43,266 nt of DNA from a virus. The notes beneath the pieces were generated by a model that was given only the letters and a program-made list of their open reading frames with translations, ran no database searches and was not told the DNA's origin. The position numbers and the translations under genes were made by a program. Positions within the stretch are counted from its first letter, which is position 1, and every line of letters starts with the position of its first letter. Shown piece after piece: positions 28,684-43,006 of the stretch. The stretch lies in the IMG/VR virus record IMGVR_UViG_3300006071_000023, positions 1-43,266 of that record. One strand, written 5' to 3'.

Positions 28684-28720
28684 GAGGCCGTTGGGGTTTT
28701 CCCGGCGGCCTCATTTTGTT
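28684..28720 (+). terminator. Hairpin after the tRNA-like attP core, probable tRNA terminator
   Basis: GAGGCCG (28684-28690) pairs with CGGCCTC (28706-28712), followed by ATTTTGTT. It probably terminates transcription of the host tRNA-His once the phage is integrated, and it shields the integrase gene from readthrough. It overlaps the last codon and stop of the integrase gene on the other strand. Confidence 0.65.
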
Positions 28721-29874
28721 CCAGAGGTGCTCGTTGCACTTTCGTTGCAGTCTCGTTGCACTTTCCTGTTCCGGTCCTGTTCCCGGAGATTCGTGATCTT
28801 GATGTGAGCGTCGTCGCTCATGCGAATCCGGTCCGCCTGGCGGCGATATTGGGCGAAGCTGTTGGGGCTTCCGTGGCCCAGCAGAGCGGCGCCCTGGGCG
28901 TCTGTGCAGCCCGCCAGGGCCGCTTCGACGCCTCGGGTATGCCGAAGGCCGTGAAAGTCGAAATCGGCCGTCTGGAGCCGTTTCTCGCGGTGCAGCTTGC
29001 CGATAAGCTTGGCCAGCTCTTGGCCGACCCCGTCTTCGGTGTAGCGCTCGCTCGAGCGGTTGTAGACCAACGTCGTCGCTGGCAGGCGGGTGACGCCCTT
29101 CCGAAGATCCTCCGCCGCCTGCCAGCGCGTCAGGGGCTGCGTCTCCGGGGTCTGGTCGAGCCAACTCGTCAACTGAGGATCCTCGGGGATGTCGACCGGC
29201 ACCCGGCGCTTTCCCGACAGGAACATCAGGCGGCCGTCCTTCCGCGCAGATCGCGGAAGCTTGACCAGGTCGCCGCGGCGCACGCCGGCGTAGCGCGCGA
29301 TCGCGACAGCCCTGGCCAGCCCGAACCGCCGCTCGGCGATCGCCGTCTCGATCACCAGGGTGACGACGTGCGCGGGCCAGACGCCGTGCGGCTCTGGCGA
29401 CGTCGCCGGCCGGCGAACCTCTGGGATGAAGGCGAAGGGGTCGGACGTGACGCCGTTGGCGATCAAAGCGGGCCGCAGCACGTTCCTGAGCACCTGCATC
29501 CGCACATTGGCCGCTCGATGGCCCTTCTTCGACCAGGTGTCCCGAGCGCGCTGCAGGAACGCCGGCGTGAAGCTGACGATCGGCATGTGACCAAAGGTGT
29601 CGGTCAGCTCGTTCAGGAGCAGCCGATATTCATACTTGGTCGACTCGGCGAGGTTCCGAAAATCTGGGCTCTCAAGCTCGTACCGGCGCAGGGCCAGCAA
29701 GAGCGTTCCTGGCGCCACGCGCGCGGGCTGAAGCGCCGCGATCATCGCCTCGACCTCGCGCTCCAGCTCGGCCGAGCCTTCCGCGCTCGTCAGCCGAAAG
29801 GACGGAAGACCCTTCTTGCGGAGATAGAGCTCGACCTGGCCGTTCGGGCGGACGACGCGGTTGACATATCGCAT
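28711..29874 (-). CDS. int: Tyrosine recombinase integrase
   Basis: A 387-residue site-specific recombinase. Catalytic residues: first Arg R199 in YAGVRRGDL, H308-x-x-R311 in FHGLRHTRG, H334 in LLGHGSPNS, and nucleophile Y343 in FAQYRRQ. The N-terminus (1-60) looks like an arm-binding domain, and 80-150 is the core-binding SAM-like domain. The ATG at 29874 is chosen over an upstream one because it begins the recognisable MRYVNRVVRPNGQVELYL and lies four bases after the excisionase stop, with GAGGT before it. It is last in its operon and points at attP. Confidence 0.96.
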   Translation of the reverse strand: MRYVNRVVRPNGQVELYLRKKGLPSFRLTSAEGSAELEREVEAMIAALQPARVAPGTLLLALRRYELESPDFRNLAESTKYEYRLLLNELTDTFGHMPIVSFTPAFLQRARDTWSKKGHRAANVRMQVLRNVLRPALIANGVTSDPFAFIPEVRRPATSPEPHGVWPAHVVTLVIETAIAERRFGLARAVAIARYAGVRRGDLVKLPRSARKDGRLMFLSGKRRVPVDIPEDPQLTSWLDQTPETQPLTRWQAAEDLRKGVTRLPATTLVYNRSSERYTEDGVGQELAKLIGKLHREKRLQTADFDFHGLRHTRGVEAALAGCTDAQGAALLGHGSPNSFAQYRRQADRIRMSDDAHIKITNLREQDRNRKVQRDCNESATSTSGTK

Positions 29875-29878
29875 GAGG

Positions 29879-30172
29879 CTACCTCGAGGCGCGGCGCCCT
29901 CGGCGCTCGGCCAGGTGAATCGCAAGATCCTCAGGGCTCATGGCGGACGATGGCTCGGACGCGGTCGAGCATTCTCCGCGCGCCGGCAGCATGTCAATCA
30001 GCCGGTCGAGATCCGCGCGCTTCCACACGACGCCACGGAGCGGCCGGAGGTCCACCGCGGCGATCTTGTATTGTGCGGTCAGGGCCGCGAACTGGGTCTC
30101 ACCGACGCTCAGATAGGCGGCAGCCATCTCGCGGGACATGAGGGCTGGCCAGTTGGGTAGGGCGCCGATCAC
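29879..30172 (-). CDS. xis: Excisionase-like DNA-binding protein
   Basis: A 97-residue protein with a MerR/AlpA-like helix-turn-helix: ALMSREMAAAYLSVGETQFA, then GVVWKRADLDRLIDML, the wing and recognition pattern of many excisionases. It lies directly upstream of the integrase in the same operon, and overlaps the preceding gene (GTGA). The GTG start at 30172 is chosen for its GGGAAGG ribosome site; a longer reading lacks one. It should direct integrase toward excision. A pure regulator is the alternative. Confidence 0.8.
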   Translation of the reverse strand: MIGALPNWPALMSREMAAAYLSVGETQFAALTAQYKIAAVDLRPLRGVVWKRADLDRLIDMLPARGECSTASEPSSAMSPEDLAIHLAERRGRRASR

Positions 30173-31708: not shown

Positions 31709-32292
31709 CGCTCGACCCTCCTGAAAGTCAGCGCCCAGACCCAAGGATTTTCGTCCCAAGCGCCGGAGCCATTGATGTGCTCCCAGAGAGCGGCGAAGAT
31801 CGCCTTGGGCGTCCCGATGTCATCGAAGTCTCCGGGAACGCAGCCCTCTGCCAATGCATCGGCCTCGCTGATCTCCTGCAGGCGCTCCACCCGGATATCG
31901 GTGATCTCCAGCGTGATCCGGCTAAGTTTGCGGGGCATGAAGAGCGGCGAGCGCCAGCGAATCTCGCTGTCGTTCGAGGGGATGTTATCCATGCCCCGCG
32001 CCTCGGCATCCTGCCGCCAATTCGCGCGGTAGATTGTCACTTGATCGTTCGGCCAAGCGAATGCCTCCCGCACCCATAGCCGATCGCCGACCTCAAACCT
32101 GCAGGGTGCGAGCTGGTCACGCGAGCACATGAACCCGGACTCAGTCTCCGTCATGATCCGCTCGCCGTTGGCGATAAGGTCATGGACGGTGAGTCCGCGG
32201 GCCGGTTTCGCAATGCGCCGGGTCTGCGTCTTCGTTCCAGCCAAGATTGCGCGGATGCTGGTCGCGCCGAAAATGATTGGCGGCCCGCTCAT
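31705..32292 (-). CDS. ASCH-domain-like phage protein
   Basis: A 195-residue protein with the hallmark of the ASCH-like phage family: IIFGATSIRAILAGTKTQTR at the start, then FEVGDRLWVREAFAW and later RITLEITDIRVERLQEIS followed by ADALAEG. ASCH domains bind RNA; in phages the role is unknown, and some annotations call it morphogenetic. It overlaps ParB and the next small gene by four bases each. Length and pattern are normal for the family. Confidence 0.85.
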   Translation of the reverse strand: MSGPPIIFGATSIRAILAGTKTQTRRIAKPARGLTVHDLIANGERIMTETESGFMCSRDQLAPCRFEVGDRLWVREAFAWPNDQVTIYRANWRQDAEARGMDNIPSNDSEIRWRSPLFMPRKLSRITLEITDIRVERLQEISEADALAEGCVPGDFDDIGTPKAIFAALWEHINGSGAWDENPWVWALTFRRVER

Positions 32293-33872
32293 TCCTCCTC
32301 TCCCGCGTCATCATCGGCGTCGTCGGCCGGCGCCGGCGGCTCAACTGGCAAGCCCTGGATAAGGTTCATTGCCATCGCGATCGCCTCGATGGCGACGTCG
32401 TCGTAGGTGTTGACGTGCTTGCCGTTCCTCGACCAGCTGAAGCCGGTCGAGGTCCACGCGCCGTCCAGGCCGACCCGCGCCAAGAACTCTTTGAACGCCA
32501 GAAGCGTAGCGCTCGTGCCGTGCCAGTCCATCCGGAATTGGCGGATCGCCGCCTCCCGCTCCTGACGAACGCGCTTTTCCTCGGAAGCCTTCGCTGCCTG
32601 GGCGGCTTGCCGCGCGGCGCGATCCGCCAGCATCTTCCGGCCTTCCTCGTTCGGCTCGTAGGGACCGTTCAGCCACGCGGTCGAGTAGCGCTGGCCGAGA
32701 TCAGGATCGATGCCGGCCCGGGCGCGCAGCGTGTCGATCGCCACCGAAAGGCTGTGCTCGTCCTGGGGATTGCAGCCGATGGCCAGCAAGGCATTGACAG
32801 CCGACCAAGCGCGCTGGACGCGAATGCGACCGTCGAGCCCCGAGATGTCTGGCCGATAAATCAGCCCAGCGTCGACCAGCGGCTGCCAAGCTTCGGGCGG
32901 GACGTTGGGATCGATTTGCGCAGAATGTGTTCCTTCCACCCTATAGGAGTGAACGATCTCGGCGACGGCCAGCAGCATCCAGTCTGGAAAAGCGTCGTCA
33001 TCCGCGGAGTCGAACATCTCCGGCTGATCACCGTCGCCGTCGTCGGCCGTTTGGTGAGCCTGGACAAGGTTTCGCGCGGCCGTGACCGACAGATAGTCCT
33101 CGTCGTCCTTCGGCAACGTCATGCGCTCGAGGAGGTTCGGCTCAAGTTGCAGCAGCTGCAAGCGCTGTTGCACGACCCGCTGGGTCACGCTGACGCGCTG
33201 GGAGATCTCCAGCGTCGTCATGCCGGCGTCGACCAGCGCCTTGAAGGCCTGGGCCTCCTCGACCGGGTTAAGCGCTCGGCGCTGCAGGTTCTCAGCCAGC
33301 GCGCGCAACCGGTGTCCGAGGTCGTCGGTCTCGATGACCTGGCAGGGGATCACGCGATCTTCCGGCCAGTCGCCGTCGCGGATCGCCGCCTGGCTGGCGC
33401 GCCAACGGCGCTCGCCGGAGATTAGACGATACATCGGGACGCGAGCGCCGTTCGCGTCCCTGACGACCGCTTCCTCCTCCTCGGCCGCGGCGCGAACAAC
33501 GAGGTTCTGCAACAGCCCGTTCTGCAAGATGTCCTGGCGAAGGGCGTCAAGCTCTTCGTCGAACTCCTCGCTCGAGAAGTCCCGACGCGGGTTGAGTGGG
33601 TCGGGAATGATCTGGAACGGCAGGAGGCCGACGAAACCAGCGAGCGGCGCCGTGCGGCCGGCGGCGACGTCCAGCGCGGCGAGCGCTCGGTGTCCCTCGT
33701 CGGTCAAGGTGAGATCGGGATAGGTGACCACGCCGAGATCCGCGAGGCGCTCGATGGAGCGCTTCATGTTGTCGCGGCGCCGATCGAGCCGATCGGCAAG
33801 CGCTCCAATATCTTCGACGCCAGCGGCGATCGCGCGCAGGACGTCTTCGTTTTCAATGGCTGCTACGTGCAT
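32289..33872 (-). CDS. parB: ParB-like partition protein with added N-terminal HTH
   Basis: A 527-residue ParB/Spo0J-type protein. Residues 1-75 look like a winged helix (VLRAIAAGVEDIGALADRLD). Residues 85-200 form the ParB CTPase domain, with NPRR (94-97), GERRWRA (153-159) and ENLQRR (194-199). Residues 218-242 are the DNA-binding HTH (LEISQRVSVTQRVVQQRLQL). A long charged C-terminal half follows. ParB proteins slide on DNA from parS sites. No ParA ATPase gene is found in the phage, so it may work alone, as a regulator or with a host ParA. Confidence 0.88.
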   Translation of the reverse strand: MHVAAIENEDVLRAIAAGVEDIGALADRLDRRRDNMKRSIERLADLGVVTYPDLTLTDEGHRALAALDVAAGRTAPLAGFVGLLPFQIIPDPLNPRRDFSSEEFDEELDALRQDILQNGLLQNLVVRAAAEEEEAVVRDANGARVPMYRLISGERRWRASQAAIRDGDWPEDRVIPCQVIETDDLGHRLRALAENLQRRALNPVEEAQAFKALVDAGMTTLEISQRVSVTQRVVQQRLQLLQLEPNLLERMTLPKDDEDYLSVTAARNLVQAHQTADDGDGDQPEMFDSADDDAFPDWMLLAVAEIVHSYRVEGTHSAQIDPNVPPEAWQPLVDAGLIYRPDISGLDGRIRVQRAWSAVNALLAIGCNPQDEHSLSVAIDTLRARAGIDPDLGQRYSTAWLNGPYEPNEEGRKMLADRAARQAAQAAKASEEKRVRQEREAAIRQFRMDWHGTSATLLAFKEFLARVGLDGAWTSTGFSWSRNGKHVNTYDDVAIEAIAMAMNLIQGLPVEPPAPADDADDDAGEEE

Positions 33873-34588: not shown

Positions 34589-34930
34589 TCAGCCCTCCCG
34601 ACGATCTGTCGGCGCATAGTCACGCCGGAACTGCGCTCCTGTGCGGAGCACCTTTCCGTCGGCGTCCTTCCCGCAGCGAATGATCTGGCGGTCTGCGAGT
34701 GCGTTACCGAAGGGTGTCAGACTGAGCGGGCGCTCGACGCCTTGCTGGTCGCACCATTGCCGATAGTCGGCGTAGAGGTCTTTGGCCCGCGTTGTAGCGC
34801 CTTCGACCACGACCAATCGTTCGTCAAACCACTGCGAAAAGGTCGACCTGGACATCTCCGCGCTCTCTTCAGCGGTCGCAGGCGGCGCGGGGAGTGCGGC
34901 GCCGCAGTTCGGGCAATTTCGGTAGTTCAT
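34589..34930 (-). CDS. Stand-alone copy of the D5-helicase C-terminal domain with zinc motif
   Basis: A 113-residue protein. It begins with a half zinc ribbon (CPNCGAALPAPPATAE). Residues 30-102 match the C-terminal domain of the phage's own D5-type helicase (40542-42077, residues 416-488): about 46 of 72 residues agree by eye, including FGNALADRQ and IRCGKD. In D5/P4-like proteins that domain is a winged helix thought to bind DNA. The protein has no ATPase part. A regulator or competitor of replication is inferred. ATG 34930 lies in an ATGA overlap. Confidence 0.8.
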   Translation of the reverse strand: MNYRNCPNCGAALPAPPATAEESAEMSRSTFSQWFDERLVVVEGATTRAKDLYADYRQWCDQQGVERPLSLTPFGNALADRQIIRCGKDADGKVLRTGAQFRRDYAPTDRREG

Positions 34931-35136
34931 TGGGTTGCTCCAAGCAGGCAATGATGGTCGTTGGGGGGATTGGCCACGCCAAGGATCGGCGTTGCCGGCA
35001 CGAACGAGAGGCACTCACAGCGCAGCTGACGCGGCGAGAAATCGCCAGCCATGGTGACGTCGACCGCGAGTCTTGCGTCCGGGTTCCCCGACACGGGCAT
35101 CGTGATCATGTTCGAGATGTTGAGACCGCCGCTCAT
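34927..35136 (-). CDS. Hypothetical protein, 69 aa
   Basis: A 69-residue protein, MSGGLNISNMITMPVSGNPD onward, with a probable short beta sheet (ARLAVDVTMAGDFSPRQLRC) and two Cys. ATGA overlaps at both ends (35133-35136 and 34927-34930) support it. No membrane part or family is seen. It lies between the operon's first gene and the helicase-domain paralogue. Confidence 0.55.
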   Translation of the reverse strand: MSGGLNISNMITMPVSGNPDARLAVDVTMAGDFSPRQLRCECLSFVPATPILGVANPPNDHHCLLGATQ

Positions 35137-35522
35137 TGGACGGTCGCCGATCCGAAATCGCCTGCGCAGATCTTCGCCTTGGTCGCGGCCAATCCGAGAT
35201 TGAACAGGTCCAGTTGAATGGCGAGGCCGACCGCCAGGTCACGGCCGGTGAACGCCGTCGGCGCCAGGGTTTCGCCGACGTCCTGCGCGGTGTGGGTGGA
35301 GATCAACCACTCCTTGTCGCCAATGCCGACATAGACGATCGGGGTCGGCGCGCACCCCTCGCGCTGGCGAACCAGCGGGAATGCCTGAAGCGAACCAGGT
35401 TCGCCATTGATCGCCGCAATGATGTTCTCAACCACGGCCAGGTTCGGAGAGGCCGATCCGGAGGGTGTGAAATCGGCCAAGCTGGCCATTGAATTTCGTT
35501 GCAAATTTCGGGCGGATGACAT
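35133..35522 (-). CDS. First gene of the leftward operon, unknown
   Basis: A 129-residue protein with LAVVENIIAAINGEPGSLQA and TPIVYVGIGDKEWLISTHTA, mixed alpha-beta. The ATG at 35522 is taken because AGGT lies just upstream; a second ATG 11 codons later is possible. It is the first gene after operator cluster A and so the likely first product of the leftward operon, the place lambda uses for N. No antiterminator features (arginine-rich region) are present. No family is recognised. Confidence 0.6.
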   Translation of the reverse strand: MSSARNLQRNSMASLADFTPSGSASPNLAVVENIIAAINGEPGSLQAFPLVRQREGCAPTPIVYVGIGDKEWLISTHTAQDVGETLAPTAFTGRDLAVGLAIQLDLFNLGLAATKAKICAGDFGSATVQ

Positions 35523-35685
35523 CTGGACCTACCGTTTCTGCTCCCTGCGTCCATTACGCGACGGCCAGTTACGGACTATTCGTCCATTTCGTCAATCGGC
35601 AAAGTCCATTTACCGATCGAATATGCCATTAACGTGGACTATTCCTGCAGTTGCATATCGAGGCGGAACGGATACAAAATGCGGG
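35523..35685. promoter_or_regulatory. Left operator/promoter region (OL-like)
   Basis: The gap between the divergent leftward operon and the exported-protein gene carries GTCCAT at 35549, 35582 and 35604, the related GTGGAC at 35634, and the 9-mer GGACTATTC twice (35573, 35636). The 35573-35585 site is a dyad, GGAC-N5-GTCC. TTGACG on the minus strand (35595-35590) is a likely -35 for the leftward promoter, with the dyad just downstream. TTGCAT (35651) and TACAAA (35673), 16 bases apart, may be the plus-strand promoter. The same motif recurs beside the Cro gene. Confidence 0.65.
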
Positions 35686-36450
35686 ATGATGTGGAAGATA
35701 TTTTCAGTCGTGCTGGTGCTCGGAACTCTGTCGGCGACGGCCGGGCAGGCGCGCGCTGCGCACCAGTTGAGCCATTCGAAGGCTGCCGAAGTGGGCTGGC
35801 ATGACGCGGTTAAGTGTCTGGTTATCGAAAACCTAATGTCGACCGGGTCGAAGTTCTCTTTTGAGCCACTTTGCGAAAAAGACGTCCGAACCAGATCGTT
35901 TTCGTTCGTCGCCGTATCTGGAGCTCGGGAGGCAGGCGCCGATGATGTGCCGCCATATTGGGATTACAAAGACGGGGTCCTGACGATTGGCCTCGCGGTC
36001 AAGACATACGCCACTTATCCTGGCAACGACCGATATTCGATGCAGTTCCTAATGAACAAGTCGGTCACTGGGAAAGGAACTTATCGGGCCCAAAACGCAT
36101 TCGCGGCTAAGACCGTTGTGCAGCGTCGCGAGATCGAAGAAGTCTACGGTGTTGTTGGGGCTGAGGACCCGGCGGCGAAAGAAATTACTATTGCGATGAC
36201 TGAAAGCGAGGCCAGAAAAGCGGCTCCATTCATTGACGTAAAATATTTTGTTCACATCGTCACGGCGCCTGATGGGCGGATCGGGGCTTATAACTTCGAG
36301 ACCAGTGGGCCAACATTCAATGAGCCATACGAAGATATTTCGCGAACATTTTTCATATATTTGAAAATAGATCGAGTGGAGATTTATGACAGCTTCCACA
36401 AGAAAATGGTCAAGACTGTAGAATTTACTACAGACGACAAAACACATTGA
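35686..36450 (+). CDS. Exported protein, lysogenic cargo
   Basis: A 254-residue protein with a clear signal peptide (MMWKIFSVVLVLGTLSATAG, cleavage expected near QARAA) and no later membrane span, so it should reach the periplasm. The mature part is mixed, with Tyr-rich strands. Its base composition is lower in G+C than its neighbours. It stands alone on the plus strand between the operators and the repressor, overlapping the repressor end by 23 bp, the place where prophage cargo genes are often found. The function is unknown. Confidence 0.65.
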   Translation: MMWKIFSVVLVLGTLSATAGQARAAHQLSHSKAAEVGWHDAVKCLVIENLMSTGSKFSFEPLCEKDVRTRSFSFVAVSGAREAGADDVPPYWDYKDGVLTIGLAVKTYATYPGNDRYSMQFLMNKSVTGKGTYRAQNAFAAKTVVQRREIEEVYGVVGAEDPAAKEITIAMTESEARKAAPFIDVKYFVHIVTAPDGRIGAYNFETSGPTFNEPYEDISRTFFIYLKIDRVEIYDSFHKKMVKTVEFTTDDKTH

Positions 36451-37027
36451 GGATCGATTTCACGCTCGCTCCGTCGTAGCTAAGTTCTTCTTCTGGATTG
36501 TATTGAAATGCATAGACTCGACCGTTCTTTTGGCCGCGATAAGTCTTGATTACGCCACTGCCATCATGGAACTCGATCAATACGTCTCGATCTCTGATTG
36601 GTGGCACGTGCCGTTGAATGACAAGCATTTCGCCTTCGAAGATCCGGGGCTCCATGCTGAAACCTATAGTCTTCACCACGAAGTACTCGCCTCTAAGCGT
36701 GAGGCCCATTGGCAGATCGATCCAGTCGATGATTCCGCCAGGGTTCATTGCCACCCGATCCCCATTCGAGGCTGCGGCATAGCCATAGACGGCAACTCGA
36801 TTGCTGGGCGGCGGGGCGCCTTGAGTGGGCCCCTGAGACGGATCGAACGAATCCATCACGTCCGCAATTGTGCGCGCCTGGGAAACGTTGAGCGGGTCAT
36901 CCGTCTTTAGCTTCCGATTAAACTGGCTCGCGTCCATGTCGATCGCTTTGGCGACAAACGATTTCGCGCCACGAGGCATCACGCGCAGGGCCTCGGACAA
37001 TTCCGACCATGTGGACAAAAGTTCCAT
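36428..37027 (-). CDS. Lysogeny repressor, S24/LexA-like
   Basis: A 199-residue CI/LexA-type repressor. The N-terminal helix-turn-helix spans about 20-57 (AKSFVAKAIDMDASQFNRKL). The C-terminal S24 peptidase-like domain has the serine S124 in GFSMEP and lysine K161 in GVIKTYRG. A canonical Ala-Gly cleavage bond is not evident; the linker reads VYGYAAASNG. ATG 37027 is taken over an upstream TTG. No ribosome site is seen, so the message may be leaderless, as for lambda cI. It should hold both operator clusters in the prophage. Confidence 0.93.
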   Translation of the reverse strand: MELLSTWSELSEALRVMPRGAKSFVAKAIDMDASQFNRKLKTDDPLNVSQARTIADVMDSFDPSQGPTQGAPPPSNRVAVYGYAAASNGDRVAMNPGGIIDWIDLPMGLTLRGEYFVVKTIGFSMEPRIFEGEMLVIQRHVPPIRDRDVLIEFHDGSGVIKTYRGQKNGRVYAFQYNPEEELSYDGASVKSILNVFCRL

Positions 37028-37092: not shown

Positions 37093-37145
37093 AAAATGGA
37101 CATAACGTCACAGACGGATAGTCCATATGGGACAAATAGTCCATA
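37093..37145. promoter_or_regulatory. Right operator region (OR-like)
   Basis: Between the divergent repressor and Cro-like genes, ATGGAC occurs at 37096 and GTCCAT at 37121 and 37139. The 10-mer ATAGTCCATA occurs twice, at 37118-37127 and 37136-37145, 18 bp apart. Between them ATGGGAC (37127-37133) forms a partial dyad with the first copy. The motif matches the left cluster at 35549-35644. Two of the sites overlap the start codon and first codons of the Cro-like gene. Repressor and Cro binding is inferred from motif and position. Confidence 0.7.
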
Positions 37146-37384
37146 AGTCGCGCCAAGAGCGCCCCGAAACGCCTGCTGATCGTATCATTCGGGCCCTCGG
37201 TGCCCGACGCGTAGCAGAGATCACGCAGTTGACCACTGATGCCGTGAGAAAATGGCAGCGTCGGCGCGCGACTGGCGGCGGCGGCGGATTGGTGCCTGCA
37301 CAATACCAGCAGCTGCTCCTGAACGAGGCTCGCGCCGCCGGATTGGAATTCGCTGCCGAAGATCTCATCGGGCCAGAGTTCTGA
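37127..37384 (+). CDS. Cro-like repressor
   Basis: An 85-residue DNA-binding protein. The stretch ADRIIRALGARRVAEITQLT and TDAVRKWQRRR forms a Cro/YdaS-type helix-turn-helix, with a short Gly-rich linker and helical tail. It is divergent from the S24 repressor, as Cro is in lambda. Its ATG lies inside an operator copy and lacks a ribosome site, so translation may be leaderless or weak. It is the first rightward early gene. Length and position fit a lytic switch protein. Confidence 0.85.
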   Translation: MGQIVHKSRQERPETPADRIIRALGARRVAEITQLTTDAVRKWQRRRATGGGGGLVPAQYQQLLLNEARAAGLEFAAEDLIGPEF

Positions 37385-40545: not shown

Positions 40546-42077
40546 GTGCGGATGGCGGATCATACAGCTTCGGTTCAGCGCCATCGCCCGAAGAGCTCGC
40601 ACAGTTCGAGCTGAACGACTTCGGCAACGCCATGCGCCTGGCGCGCATGGTCGGCGCCGAGATCAATCCTGACGGGACTGTCGACACGGCCGGCGCGACG
40701 CTGCTCTATGTGCGCGAACTGGGCTCGTGGATCGGCTGGAACGATAAGCACTGGGACCTGAAGCTGGGCGGGCGTCTGGCGCAGCGGATGGCGCACCGCG
40801 TCGCCCAGACGCTGATCGCGCAACAGCCGTTCCTGGCTGCTCGCATCCCCAAGGCCGACAAGGAAATCTGGTCGTTCATCCGCGCCAGTGGCAATGCCGG
40901 CAAGGCGTCGTCCATGTTGGAGATCGCCGAGTCCTATCTACAGGTGGACCTCGACGAGTTCGACAAGGATCCGCTCGCGCTGACCGTTCAGAACGGGACC
41001 CTGAAGTTCCGCCGCGCGCCTGGAGACGGCTGCATCGTCAGCTTCGGACCGCACGATCCGATCGACCGCATCACCCGGATGGCCCACGTCGTGTATGATC
41101 CTGATGCGGCGGCGCCCGTTTGGGAGGCGAGCCTTCGCCAGTGGCAACCGTTGCCAGAGATGCAGGGCTACCTCCAGCGGCTGTCGGGCTATGTGGCGAC
41201 AGGCCACATCCACGAGCAGGTCTTCGTGATCCTGCAAGGCAAGGGCAGGGACGGCAAATCGACCTTCGTCGGGGCCCTGCGCGAGCTGCTCGGCGACTAT
41301 GCCGGCGTTTCGGACGTCAAGACCTTCCTCGACATCGGCCAGCGTGGCGGCAACGACGCCTCGCCGGACCTGGCGCGCCTGGCCGGCGATTGCCGTCTGG
41401 TGAGCGTGGCAGAGCCGCCTCGAGGGGCGAAGCTGGCCGAGGCGATGATCAAGAGCTTCACGGGCGGCGCGCCAATCCTGGCGCGGTTTCTGCGGCGTGA
41501 CCCGTTCGACTTCCTGCCCAAGCCCAAGGTCATCATGGAGTGCAACAGCCGTCCTGTGATCCGCGGTGACGACGAGGGCATCTGGCGACGAGTGCGCCTG
41601 ATCATGTTCGAGCACCAGGTCGGGCCGGACAAGGTCGACAAGTCGCTCGCTGCGAAAATCCGCCTGGAATATTCCGGGGTGCTCAACTGGATCATTGGTG
41701 GCATCGGCGATTGGATGAGTGAGGGGCTTCGCGAGCCGGATCGGGTGGCCGCGACCATGGATGACTACCGCAAAGGGGCGAGTCCATTTGGTGAGTGGTT
41801 CCTCGAGCGGCTGGAGCTGGTCGAGGATGCCAAGACGCCCGCGAAGCACCTCTATTCCGACTACAAGGAATGGTGCGAGGCGGCCGGCATAGAGCGGCCG
41901 ATCAGCCAGACAGCCTTCGGCAACGCGCTGGCCGACCGCCAGGTGATCCGATGCGGCAAGGATCGCCAGGGCAACGTGCTGCGCATGGGCGCGCGCCTGC
42001 GGCCGAAACTCGACGCGCCACTCGATGTTCCGGGCGCCGGCGGCCCTTCAGGAGGCGATGATGATGTCTTCGCGTGA
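40542..42077 (+). CDS. D5-type SF3 replicative helicase
   Basis: A 511-residue phage/plasmid primase-helicase family protein. The D5 N-terminal domain spans about 60-210. The SF3 ATPase has Walker A GKGRDGKST (233-241), Walker B-like RLVSVAEPP (285-293), and motif C IMECNSRP with N335. The C-terminal winged-helix domain (416-488) is repeated as a separate protein at 34589-34930. It unwinds DNA at the origin, probably at the iterons just downstream. The GTG start overlaps the primase stop. Confidence 0.94.
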   Translation: MSADGGSYSFGSAPSPEELAQFELNDFGNAMRLARMVGAEINPDGTVDTAGATLLYVRELGSWIGWNDKHWDLKLGGRLAQRMAHRVAQTLIAQQPFLAARIPKADKEIWSFIRASGNAGKASSMLEIAESYLQVDLDEFDKDPLALTVQNGTLKFRRAPGDGCIVSFGPHDPIDRITRMAHVVYDPDAAAPVWEASLRQWQPLPEMQGYLQRLSGYVATGHIHEQVFVILQGKGRDGKSTFVGALRELLGDYAGVSDVKTFLDIGQRGGNDASPDLARLAGDCRLVSVAEPPRGAKLAEAMIKSFTGGAPILARFLRRDPFDFLPKPKVIMECNSRPVIRGDDEGIWRRVRLIMFEHQVGPDKVDKSLAAKIRLEYSGVLNWIIGGIGDWMSEGLREPDRVAATMDDYRKGASPFGEWFLERLELVEDAKTPAKHLYSDYKEWCEAAGIERPISQTAFGNALADRQVIRCGKDRQGNVLRMGARLRPKLDAPLDVPGAGGPSGGDDDVFA

Positions 42078-42310
42078 CGGACACTTGACGGACAGTTGGA
42101 CAGTTTGGGGGCGGCTTCCGGGCAACCCTCGGCGAAGAACGGATAGTTCAGCTGTCCGTCGGGCAAAAACCGTCCGTCGCGCAAGGTGTTGTTTGTAAAA
42201 GGGAAACGGACAGTCCGGACAGTTCGGACAGTTTTCCGGGGTGACGCATATGCGATCATGCGCATGCGGGGCGTATGCGGAGGTGTGGGTGTCCGTCCGT
42301 GGTGTCCGTC
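42075..42310. repeat. Iteron cluster, candidate replication origin
   Basis: The gap after the helicase gene holds many copies of one motif. GACGGACA occurs at 42076 and 42087 (11 bp apart), and its complement TGTCCGTC at 42153, 42290 and 42303. CGGACAGT occurs three times exactly nine bases apart (42207, 42216, 42225), with GGACAGTT at 42090 and 42098. ATGCG occurs four times at 42250-42279. Such direct and inverted repeats beside replication genes are typical of phage and plasmid origins. Binding by the helicase or its stand-alone domain is inferred. Confidence 0.65.
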
Positions 42311-42364
42311 TCTGTGTGTGGTGGTGTTGTGGTGGGTATCCTTGTCAGGATTAGGGGTGATGAA

Positions 42365-43006
42365 ATGAGCAAAGCGACTGCCGAAAATCGAAAGATGGAA
42401 ATCACTTCGACGAAGGCTGGCGTTTTCACGGCGGCCGACTGTTCCGTGGAAAAGCTCCTCGGACCGGCCAGCGGCCTTGGCATGGCCGGCTCCTGGGCGC
42501 TTCTGTGGCTGCACACCTTCTGCGAGGCGATGGCGATCGAGAACGTCGAGGCCCAGCAGTTCGGGGTCTACATGCCGATGTTCTGCGAGCGCCTGCCTGG
42601 TGGCCTGATCGATCGCCGGCCGCTGCTGCGCAACTACATGTTCGTGCGCGTTGGCGAGGACAGGATCGCCGATGGCAGCTGGGCAAAGCTGTTTAATACC
42701 CGTGGCGTCAAGACCGTGTTCACGGTGTCCTCGATGCGGCCTGCGTTCATCCGCGACGCTGACATCCAGCAGCTGCGCCAGGCTGAATTGGCTCGCGCCA
42801 GCGCGGCAACGGTGATCGCTGACACGCCCTGGAAGGAAGGCGACCGTGCGCAGATCTTCGATGGTTCGTTCGCCGGATTTTCCGCAATCGTCGATTACCC
42901 TATTGACAGGGATCGCGTTTATGTTCTTCTTTCGTTCATGGGCCGACAAACCCGCGTTGAAGTGTCCCGTTCGCACTTGACCCCCTTGCGAGGTCAAGTG
43001 CGGTAG
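42365..43006 (+). CDS. NusG/RfaH-like transcription factor, probable antiterminator
   Basis: A 213-residue protein with the two NusG domains: an NGN-like part (about 42-130, WALLWLHTFCEAMAIENVEA, then FGVYMPMF and RPLLRNYMFVRV) and a KOW part (155-206, WKEGDRAQIFDGSFAGFSAI). AGGGG precedes ATG 42365. Specialised NusG paralogues bind RNA polymerase and prevent pausing or termination on chosen operons. It is the last early gene and lies before the terminator that guards the late operon, so late antitermination is the likely job. Confidence 0.85.
   Translation: MSKATAENRKMEITSTKAGVFTAADCSVEKLLGPASGLGMAGSWALLWLHTFCEAMAIENVEAQQFGVYMPMFCERLPGGLIDRRPLLRNYMFVRVGEDRIADGSWAKLFNTRGVKTVFTVSSMRPAFIRDADIQQLRQAELARASAATVIADTPWKEGDRAQIFDGSFAGFSAIVDYPIDRDRVYVLLSFMGRQTRVEVSRSHLTPLRGQVR

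Follow-up and report, generated by a model that had tools for sequence, protein, structure and literature searches.

Why would a phage carry, in addition to the DNA-binding domain at the end of its initiator helicase, a second copy of that domain as a gene of its own? The question is raised by a 113-aa open reading frame (ORF) in a 43,266-nucleotide IMG/VR virus record, analyzed over its whole length (here called the window). A sequence-only reading of this DNA had matched the ORF to the C-terminal domain of the D5 helicase that the phage itself encodes, and the match holds beyond chance: 50 of 82 residues are identical to helicase residues 414 to 495 (BLASTP, E = 1e−31), including 46 of 73 over the stretch originally claimed. 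The coding strand, which had been left unstated, is the minus strand (Table 1). The predicted protein narrowly reaches the PF03288 (Pox_D5) profile (21.5 bits versus a gathering score of 21.4), and profile searches found neither D5_N nor the AAA+ motor (DUF5906). As in a truncated initiator, the DNA-binding part is present and the activity domain is absent. There are two copies of the domain in the window, with no third, and they lie on opposite sides of the immunity region, as had been noted, with the repressor and cro-like genes between them.

The free copy has near its N-terminus the Cys-x-x-Cys motif that had been described as an addition (CPNC, residues 6 to 9), and this motif has no counterpart in the helicase copy. 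We considered a zinc ribbon, but the matches were too weak (Zn_ribbon_3, E = 0.067) to establish a zinc domain. A profile search of the first 28 residues recognized no partner-binding domain, searches with Pfam-type and PHROG profiles found no Bro-N or Phage_pRha N-terminal domain in the protein, and a library of anti-phage defence systems gave no match to it.

The AF2 model of the free protein, built from a 26-row alignment, is a winged helix. Its elements are a helix that extends to residue 38, strand 46-48, helix 49-63, a recognition helix at 71-80, and a wing formed by strands 84-88 and 94-97. The 28 N-terminal residues, CPNC included, are modelled with low confidence. The best solved structures for the model are the DNA-binding domains of RFX5 (Z = 10.8) and RFX1 (Z = 9.1). 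The origin-binding domain of the P4 alpha protein (PDB 1KA8) follows with Z = 8.6 (2.5 Å over 79 aligned residues), and the C-terminus of AsfvPrimPol comes next (Z = 7.2). A weak resemblance to RFX1 was noted earlier for the C-terminal domain of vaccinia D5 (PMC9611036). The free protein is thus like the P4 domain in predicted fold and in profile, and domains related to the latter read origin iterons. The P4 domain, however, is the tail of a primase-helicase, whereas the protein of the window stands free, begins at a start codon of its own, and carries a CPxC head.

Table 1. Features of the window that bear on the free-standing domain (a dot marks features without strand)
Feature	Position	Strand	Basis
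Stand-alone D5/P4-type origin-binding winged-helix protein (predicted), 113 aa	34589..34930	-	ORF, BLASTP, fold
Winged-helix core, residues 31-100	34631..34840	-	AF2 model, pLDDT about 90
Lys88 codon, wing position tracking iteron type in relatives	34667..34669	-	
Codons of Cys-Pro-Asn-Cys (CPNC), residues 6-9	34904..34915	-	
69-aa ORF, overlapping the free-domain start by ATGA	34927..35136	-	no PHROG match
GGAG, ribosome-binding-site-like, 7 nt before the free-domain ATG	34938..34941	-	sequence
129-aa ORF, first in the leftward operon	35133..35522	-	ORF list
Operator-like GGACTATTCGTCC before the leftward operon	35573..35585	.	identical motif to the 37130 site
CI/S24-type repressor	36428..36991	-	Peptidase_S24 6e-07; phrog_4 repressor 4e-08
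Cro-like small HTH gene	37127..37384	+	position, weak HTH match; homologues in L164, L170
Second exact operator-like site, repressor/cro region	37130..37142	.	motif search
D5/P4-type initiator helicase, 511 aa	40542..42077	+	D5_N 6e-21, DUF5906, Pox_D5; phrog_1156 6e-106
Origin-binding domain within the helicase, residues 414-488, paralogue of the free copy	41781..42005	+	BLASTP
Iteron array (CGGACAGT and variants, partly at 9-bp spacing), presumed replication origin	42078..42308	.	repeat search
NusG-like antiterminator, just past the iteron array	42362-43006	+	PF02357 1.7e-06; phrog_6386 3e-14

The free copy descends from a helicase domain rather than from a regulator. By identity over the core alignment it is closest to the phage's own helicase (61%, against 48 to 53% for the helicases of the four nearest relatives), and among these helicases its residues V42, E43, K50, and Y56 are shared with that of its own phage alone. 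In a tree of 39 domains it groups with the helicase domains, while the domains fused to regulators fall on the other side of a branch with 97/97 support and are thereby ruled out as its source. The tree does not fix its exact branching point within the helicase domains, and the free copy and its own helicase as exact sisters have a p-AU of 0.29. The branch of the free copy is longer than that of the helicase copy (0.62 versus 0.13), and five positions that are otherwise constant among close helicases have changed in it (P30T, G32S, K46T, Q71L, and R100Q); one of the five lies where the recognition helix begins. The recognition helix and the wing are otherwise well kept. Differences between the two copies fall mostly at third codon positions (20, 15, and 39 at the first, second, and third positions), with a dN/dS of 0.20, and both copies are therefore under purifying selection. 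Taken together, these sequence comparisons indicate a genuine duplicate that arose within this helicase lineage and has been under selection.

If the free copy is selected, what DNA might it read? The sequence-only reading had pointed to iterons near the end of the helicase gene, and they are evident there: CGGACAGT repeats lie directly 3′ of the gene, in a segment with eight occurrences of CGGACA/TGTCCG, the most in any 250-bp stretch of the window. Beyond 28 kb, CGGACAGT occurs only at this origin. In most relatives an array likewise lies directly 3′ of the helicase gene, with a differing sequence. Iteron class, read from the 450 bp that follow the helicase gene, was tabulated against the wing residue (L003, L029-L031, L161, L163-L172, L004, L032, L045, and L046, among others), and 26 helicases have an unambiguous class. 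At the wing column that corresponds to Lys88, lysine goes with GGACA in all 15 cases, arginine with GAACA in seven cases and GGACA in one, and methionine with AGACA in all three. The residue thus matches the class in 25 of the 26 helicases, with classes that were defined after inspection, and this column is the best associated of the whole alignment. In a tree built from the helicase without this domain, the iteron classes change five times, with about four independent switches, and the wing residue follows the class in nearly all pairings (sign test, 4 pairs, P = 0.125). Because the pairs are few and the classes were set after inspection, we regard the link between wing and iteron as a strong lead and not as proof.

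The free copy has kept both Lys88 and the wing sequence of its helicase, RCGKD. Given that this lysine goes with CGGACA iterons, the free protein is predicted to read the origin of its own phage, and we consider it probable, from this correspondence, that it binds these iterons. The descent from the helicase lineage and the kept wing lysine also make competition at the origin, as had been proposed, a reasonable mechanism.

We propose, as the best single reading and a tentative one, that the free protein competes with the helicase at the origin and restrains initiation. Both the protein and the helicase would bind the CGGACAGT repeats that follow the helicase gene, the former perhaps as a dimer through its Cys pair. 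Without an AAA+ motor it cannot open DNA, and a reading head of this kind should occupy the iterons and hold the helicase back. Helicase loading would then be restrained or timed early in infection or induction, once the repressor leaves the leftward promoter. Iteron binding, net inhibition, timing, and dimerization are what we infer. The analysis itself shows the homology, the predicted fold, purifying selection, the position of the iterons, the correlation of wing and iteron, and the operator-like site described below; against the proposal stand the changed constant positions, the absence of a second copy from nine related records, the post hoc wing/iteron link with its P value of 0.125, and a mismatch in phage SFQ01.

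Known initiators offer partial precedents for such a protein. The isolated C-terminal domain of SCCmec Cch2 is sufficient for specific binding (SCCmec Cch2; SaPI Rep, PMC7581432). Cch2 and SaPI Rep resemble the system in the window in that the domain is the C-terminus of a D5-type helicase and the repeat-bearing origin lies directly 3′ of the helicase gene. The isolated Cch2 domain is, however, a laboratory construct, whereas the free domain of the window occurs naturally as a gene. R6K pi30.5 and pIGRK RepR', which are short forms of initiators that retain the DNA-binding part, are negative regulators in those plasmids (PMC6854812). Like them, the protein of the window is a shorter version of an initiator with its DNA-binding part. 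They arise from internal starts within the initiator gene, whereas it is encoded by a gene of its own, which has diverged and lies at a distance of 6 kb in a different operon, and its inhibitory role would follow by analogy.

The same winged helix could instead be re-used on operators, as in Bro-N/Rha proteins, to control early or immunity genes. Eight regulators from Sphingomonad genomes (Bro-N or pRha) end in this D5 domain, which demonstrates its use outside helicases, and for five of the eight the prophage also has a D5 helicase, 12 to 16 kb away. That the free copy lies in the phage's regulatory half, and that some of its contact-side residues have changed, would also suit transcriptional control. 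Yet the free copy has no Bro-N or pRha head and falls outside the regulator clade. It keeps the helicase's wing lysine, and the 33.5- to 38-kb region contains a single CGGACA, close to where the repressor gene begins. We consider transcriptional regulation unlikely, though it is the alternative that fares best. The domain-bearing antirepressor-type proteins recorded were L087, L088, L089, L090, L151, L152, L153, and L154. No iteron-like clusters were evident near the regulator genes of L087, L088, and L151 beyond the origin, and in the regulator cases of G685 and G455 no D5 helicase was present within the flank searched.

Binding to iterons could also help initiation, if the free protein marked or bent the origin, or recruited a partner through its Cys knuckle, and so raised helicase loading. 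Its predicted target is the same as the helicase's and its expression is probably early, and a parallel comes from Efquatrovirus, a group of lytic enterococcal phages. A structure search with the fold of the free protein also returned small viral proteins, among them CO47_0147 of phage AUEF3, which over 42 residues has 20 identities (48%) to the helicase C-terminus of the same phage (two-sequence comparison, E = 2e−07). The CO47_0147 gene is stand-alone and heads the early operon, with an iteron array of TGAAGAACA alongside; its relatives occur in twenty-three records, and the synteny holds in those opened. The likeness to the protein of the window is by fold only, with no recognizable sequence match. 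Phage SFQ01, whose helicase and iterons are both of L1 type, carries a NASRA1-type small protein; its iterons follow the helicase type and not the small-protein type, which cautions that not every free domain need read iterons. Against a helper role stand the lack of a recognizable partner-binding domain in the first 28 residues and the close relatives that have the same iteron layout without the gene, in which it is dispensable. We regard such a role as improbable. Stand-alone winged-helix genes were seen in L185 (30387-30812) and L186-L198 of Efquatrovirus.

When is the free copy made? The gene had been assigned to a lysogeny operon, and it was from the prophage that the free domain had been thought to block replication or exclude superinfecting relatives. 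The operon start argues otherwise. The window has two exact copies of the operator-like motif GGACTATTNGTCC, one in the repressor/cro region (37130) and one (35573) in the gap that separates the leftward operon from the divergent gene; on the minus strand this second copy sits between TTGACG and a weak −10-like GTAACT. An identical site is found in L164, whose repressor is 52% identical, at position 1020, the corresponding place beyond the repressor gene. We read the 35573 region, from its motifs, as a putative repressor-controlled leftward early promoter, like lambda PL. Its predicted transcript would run through the free domain and a ParB-like protein (32289-33872) toward the integrase (28711-29925). 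Because the operon start shares the site with the repressor/cro region, the operon is probably shut off in the prophage and active early, and the free-domain gene appears more likely to be an early gene than a lysogeny gene. Two further genes were noted: the NusG-like antiterminator gene past the iteron array, conserved in several relatives, and an ORF on the plus strand (35685-36450, part of frame 35407-36450), convergent to the repressor gene, with a signal-like N-terminus (MMWKIFSVVLVLGTLSATAGQARA), which is possibly a lysogenic-conversion gene.

A blocker made in the lysogen could act on relatives, since Sphingomonad prophages often have CGGACAGT origins (L004, L032, L045, L096, L098, and L099). 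The gene, with its conserved operator-like site, should be repressed in that state, and superinfection exclusion would then need another promoter; the defence library offered no match either. Thus, of the earlier proposal, the origin competitor stands as a reasonable mechanism and its expression in the prophage is not supported, and we hold a lysogen-made blocker to be distinctly improbable.

Relatives of the helicase in named genomes are Sphingomonas prophages, and the host is therefore likely of Sphingomonad type. A survey of whether related phages keep both copies had been proposed; none of nine related records of 34 to 42 kb, whose completeness is not given, has a second one (G007, G1070-G1073, and G1076-G1079), and none was found in shorter, closer related records. 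A search of about 1,070 genomes of Alphaproteobacteria (398 at family level, 295 at genus level, and 385 at class level, with some overlap) yielded no other stand-alone copy of this subfamily; the ORFs shorter than about 330 aa that were inspected are regulators, helicase fragments, or contig ends. The free protein had no match in known phage collections and one weak match in plasmid collections, and the literature searched holds no description of stand-alone D5 domains. One candidate, a 126-aa domain frame in L030 (9878-10255), was rejected as a second natural free domain, since a deletion and a frameshift in the helicase gene explain it; the broken helicase leaves its origin-binding domain as a separate frame, through either a real split or an assembly error. 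Two small phage families match the domain, phrog_15267 (66 positions) and phrog_34460 (80 positions), and may contain further stand-alone copies. A decaying, functionless duplicate would account for the lack of a copy in any relative examined and for the longer branch, but is very improbable given the intact ORF with its GGAG and ATGA coupling, the low dN/dS, and the well-kept recognition helix and wing.

A broader conjecture, which we consider doubtful for now, is that unrelated phages have repeatedly made the initiator's reading head a trans-acting origin regulator, and that a wing code of D5 proteins (Lys for GGACA, Arg for GAACA, and Met for AGACA) predicts the origins so controlled. The cases behind it are this phage, Efquatrovirus, and the fusions in Sphingomonad prophages. 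If the proposed restraint of initiation is true, the initiator would have given rise to a dedicated brake in the phage, in natural parallel to plasmids in which truncated initiators control copy number. The match of wing and iteron would make it possible to predict from sequence which origins members of the large D5/P4 helicase family recognize, and would give a testable role to phage winged-helix proteins that are small and unannotated.
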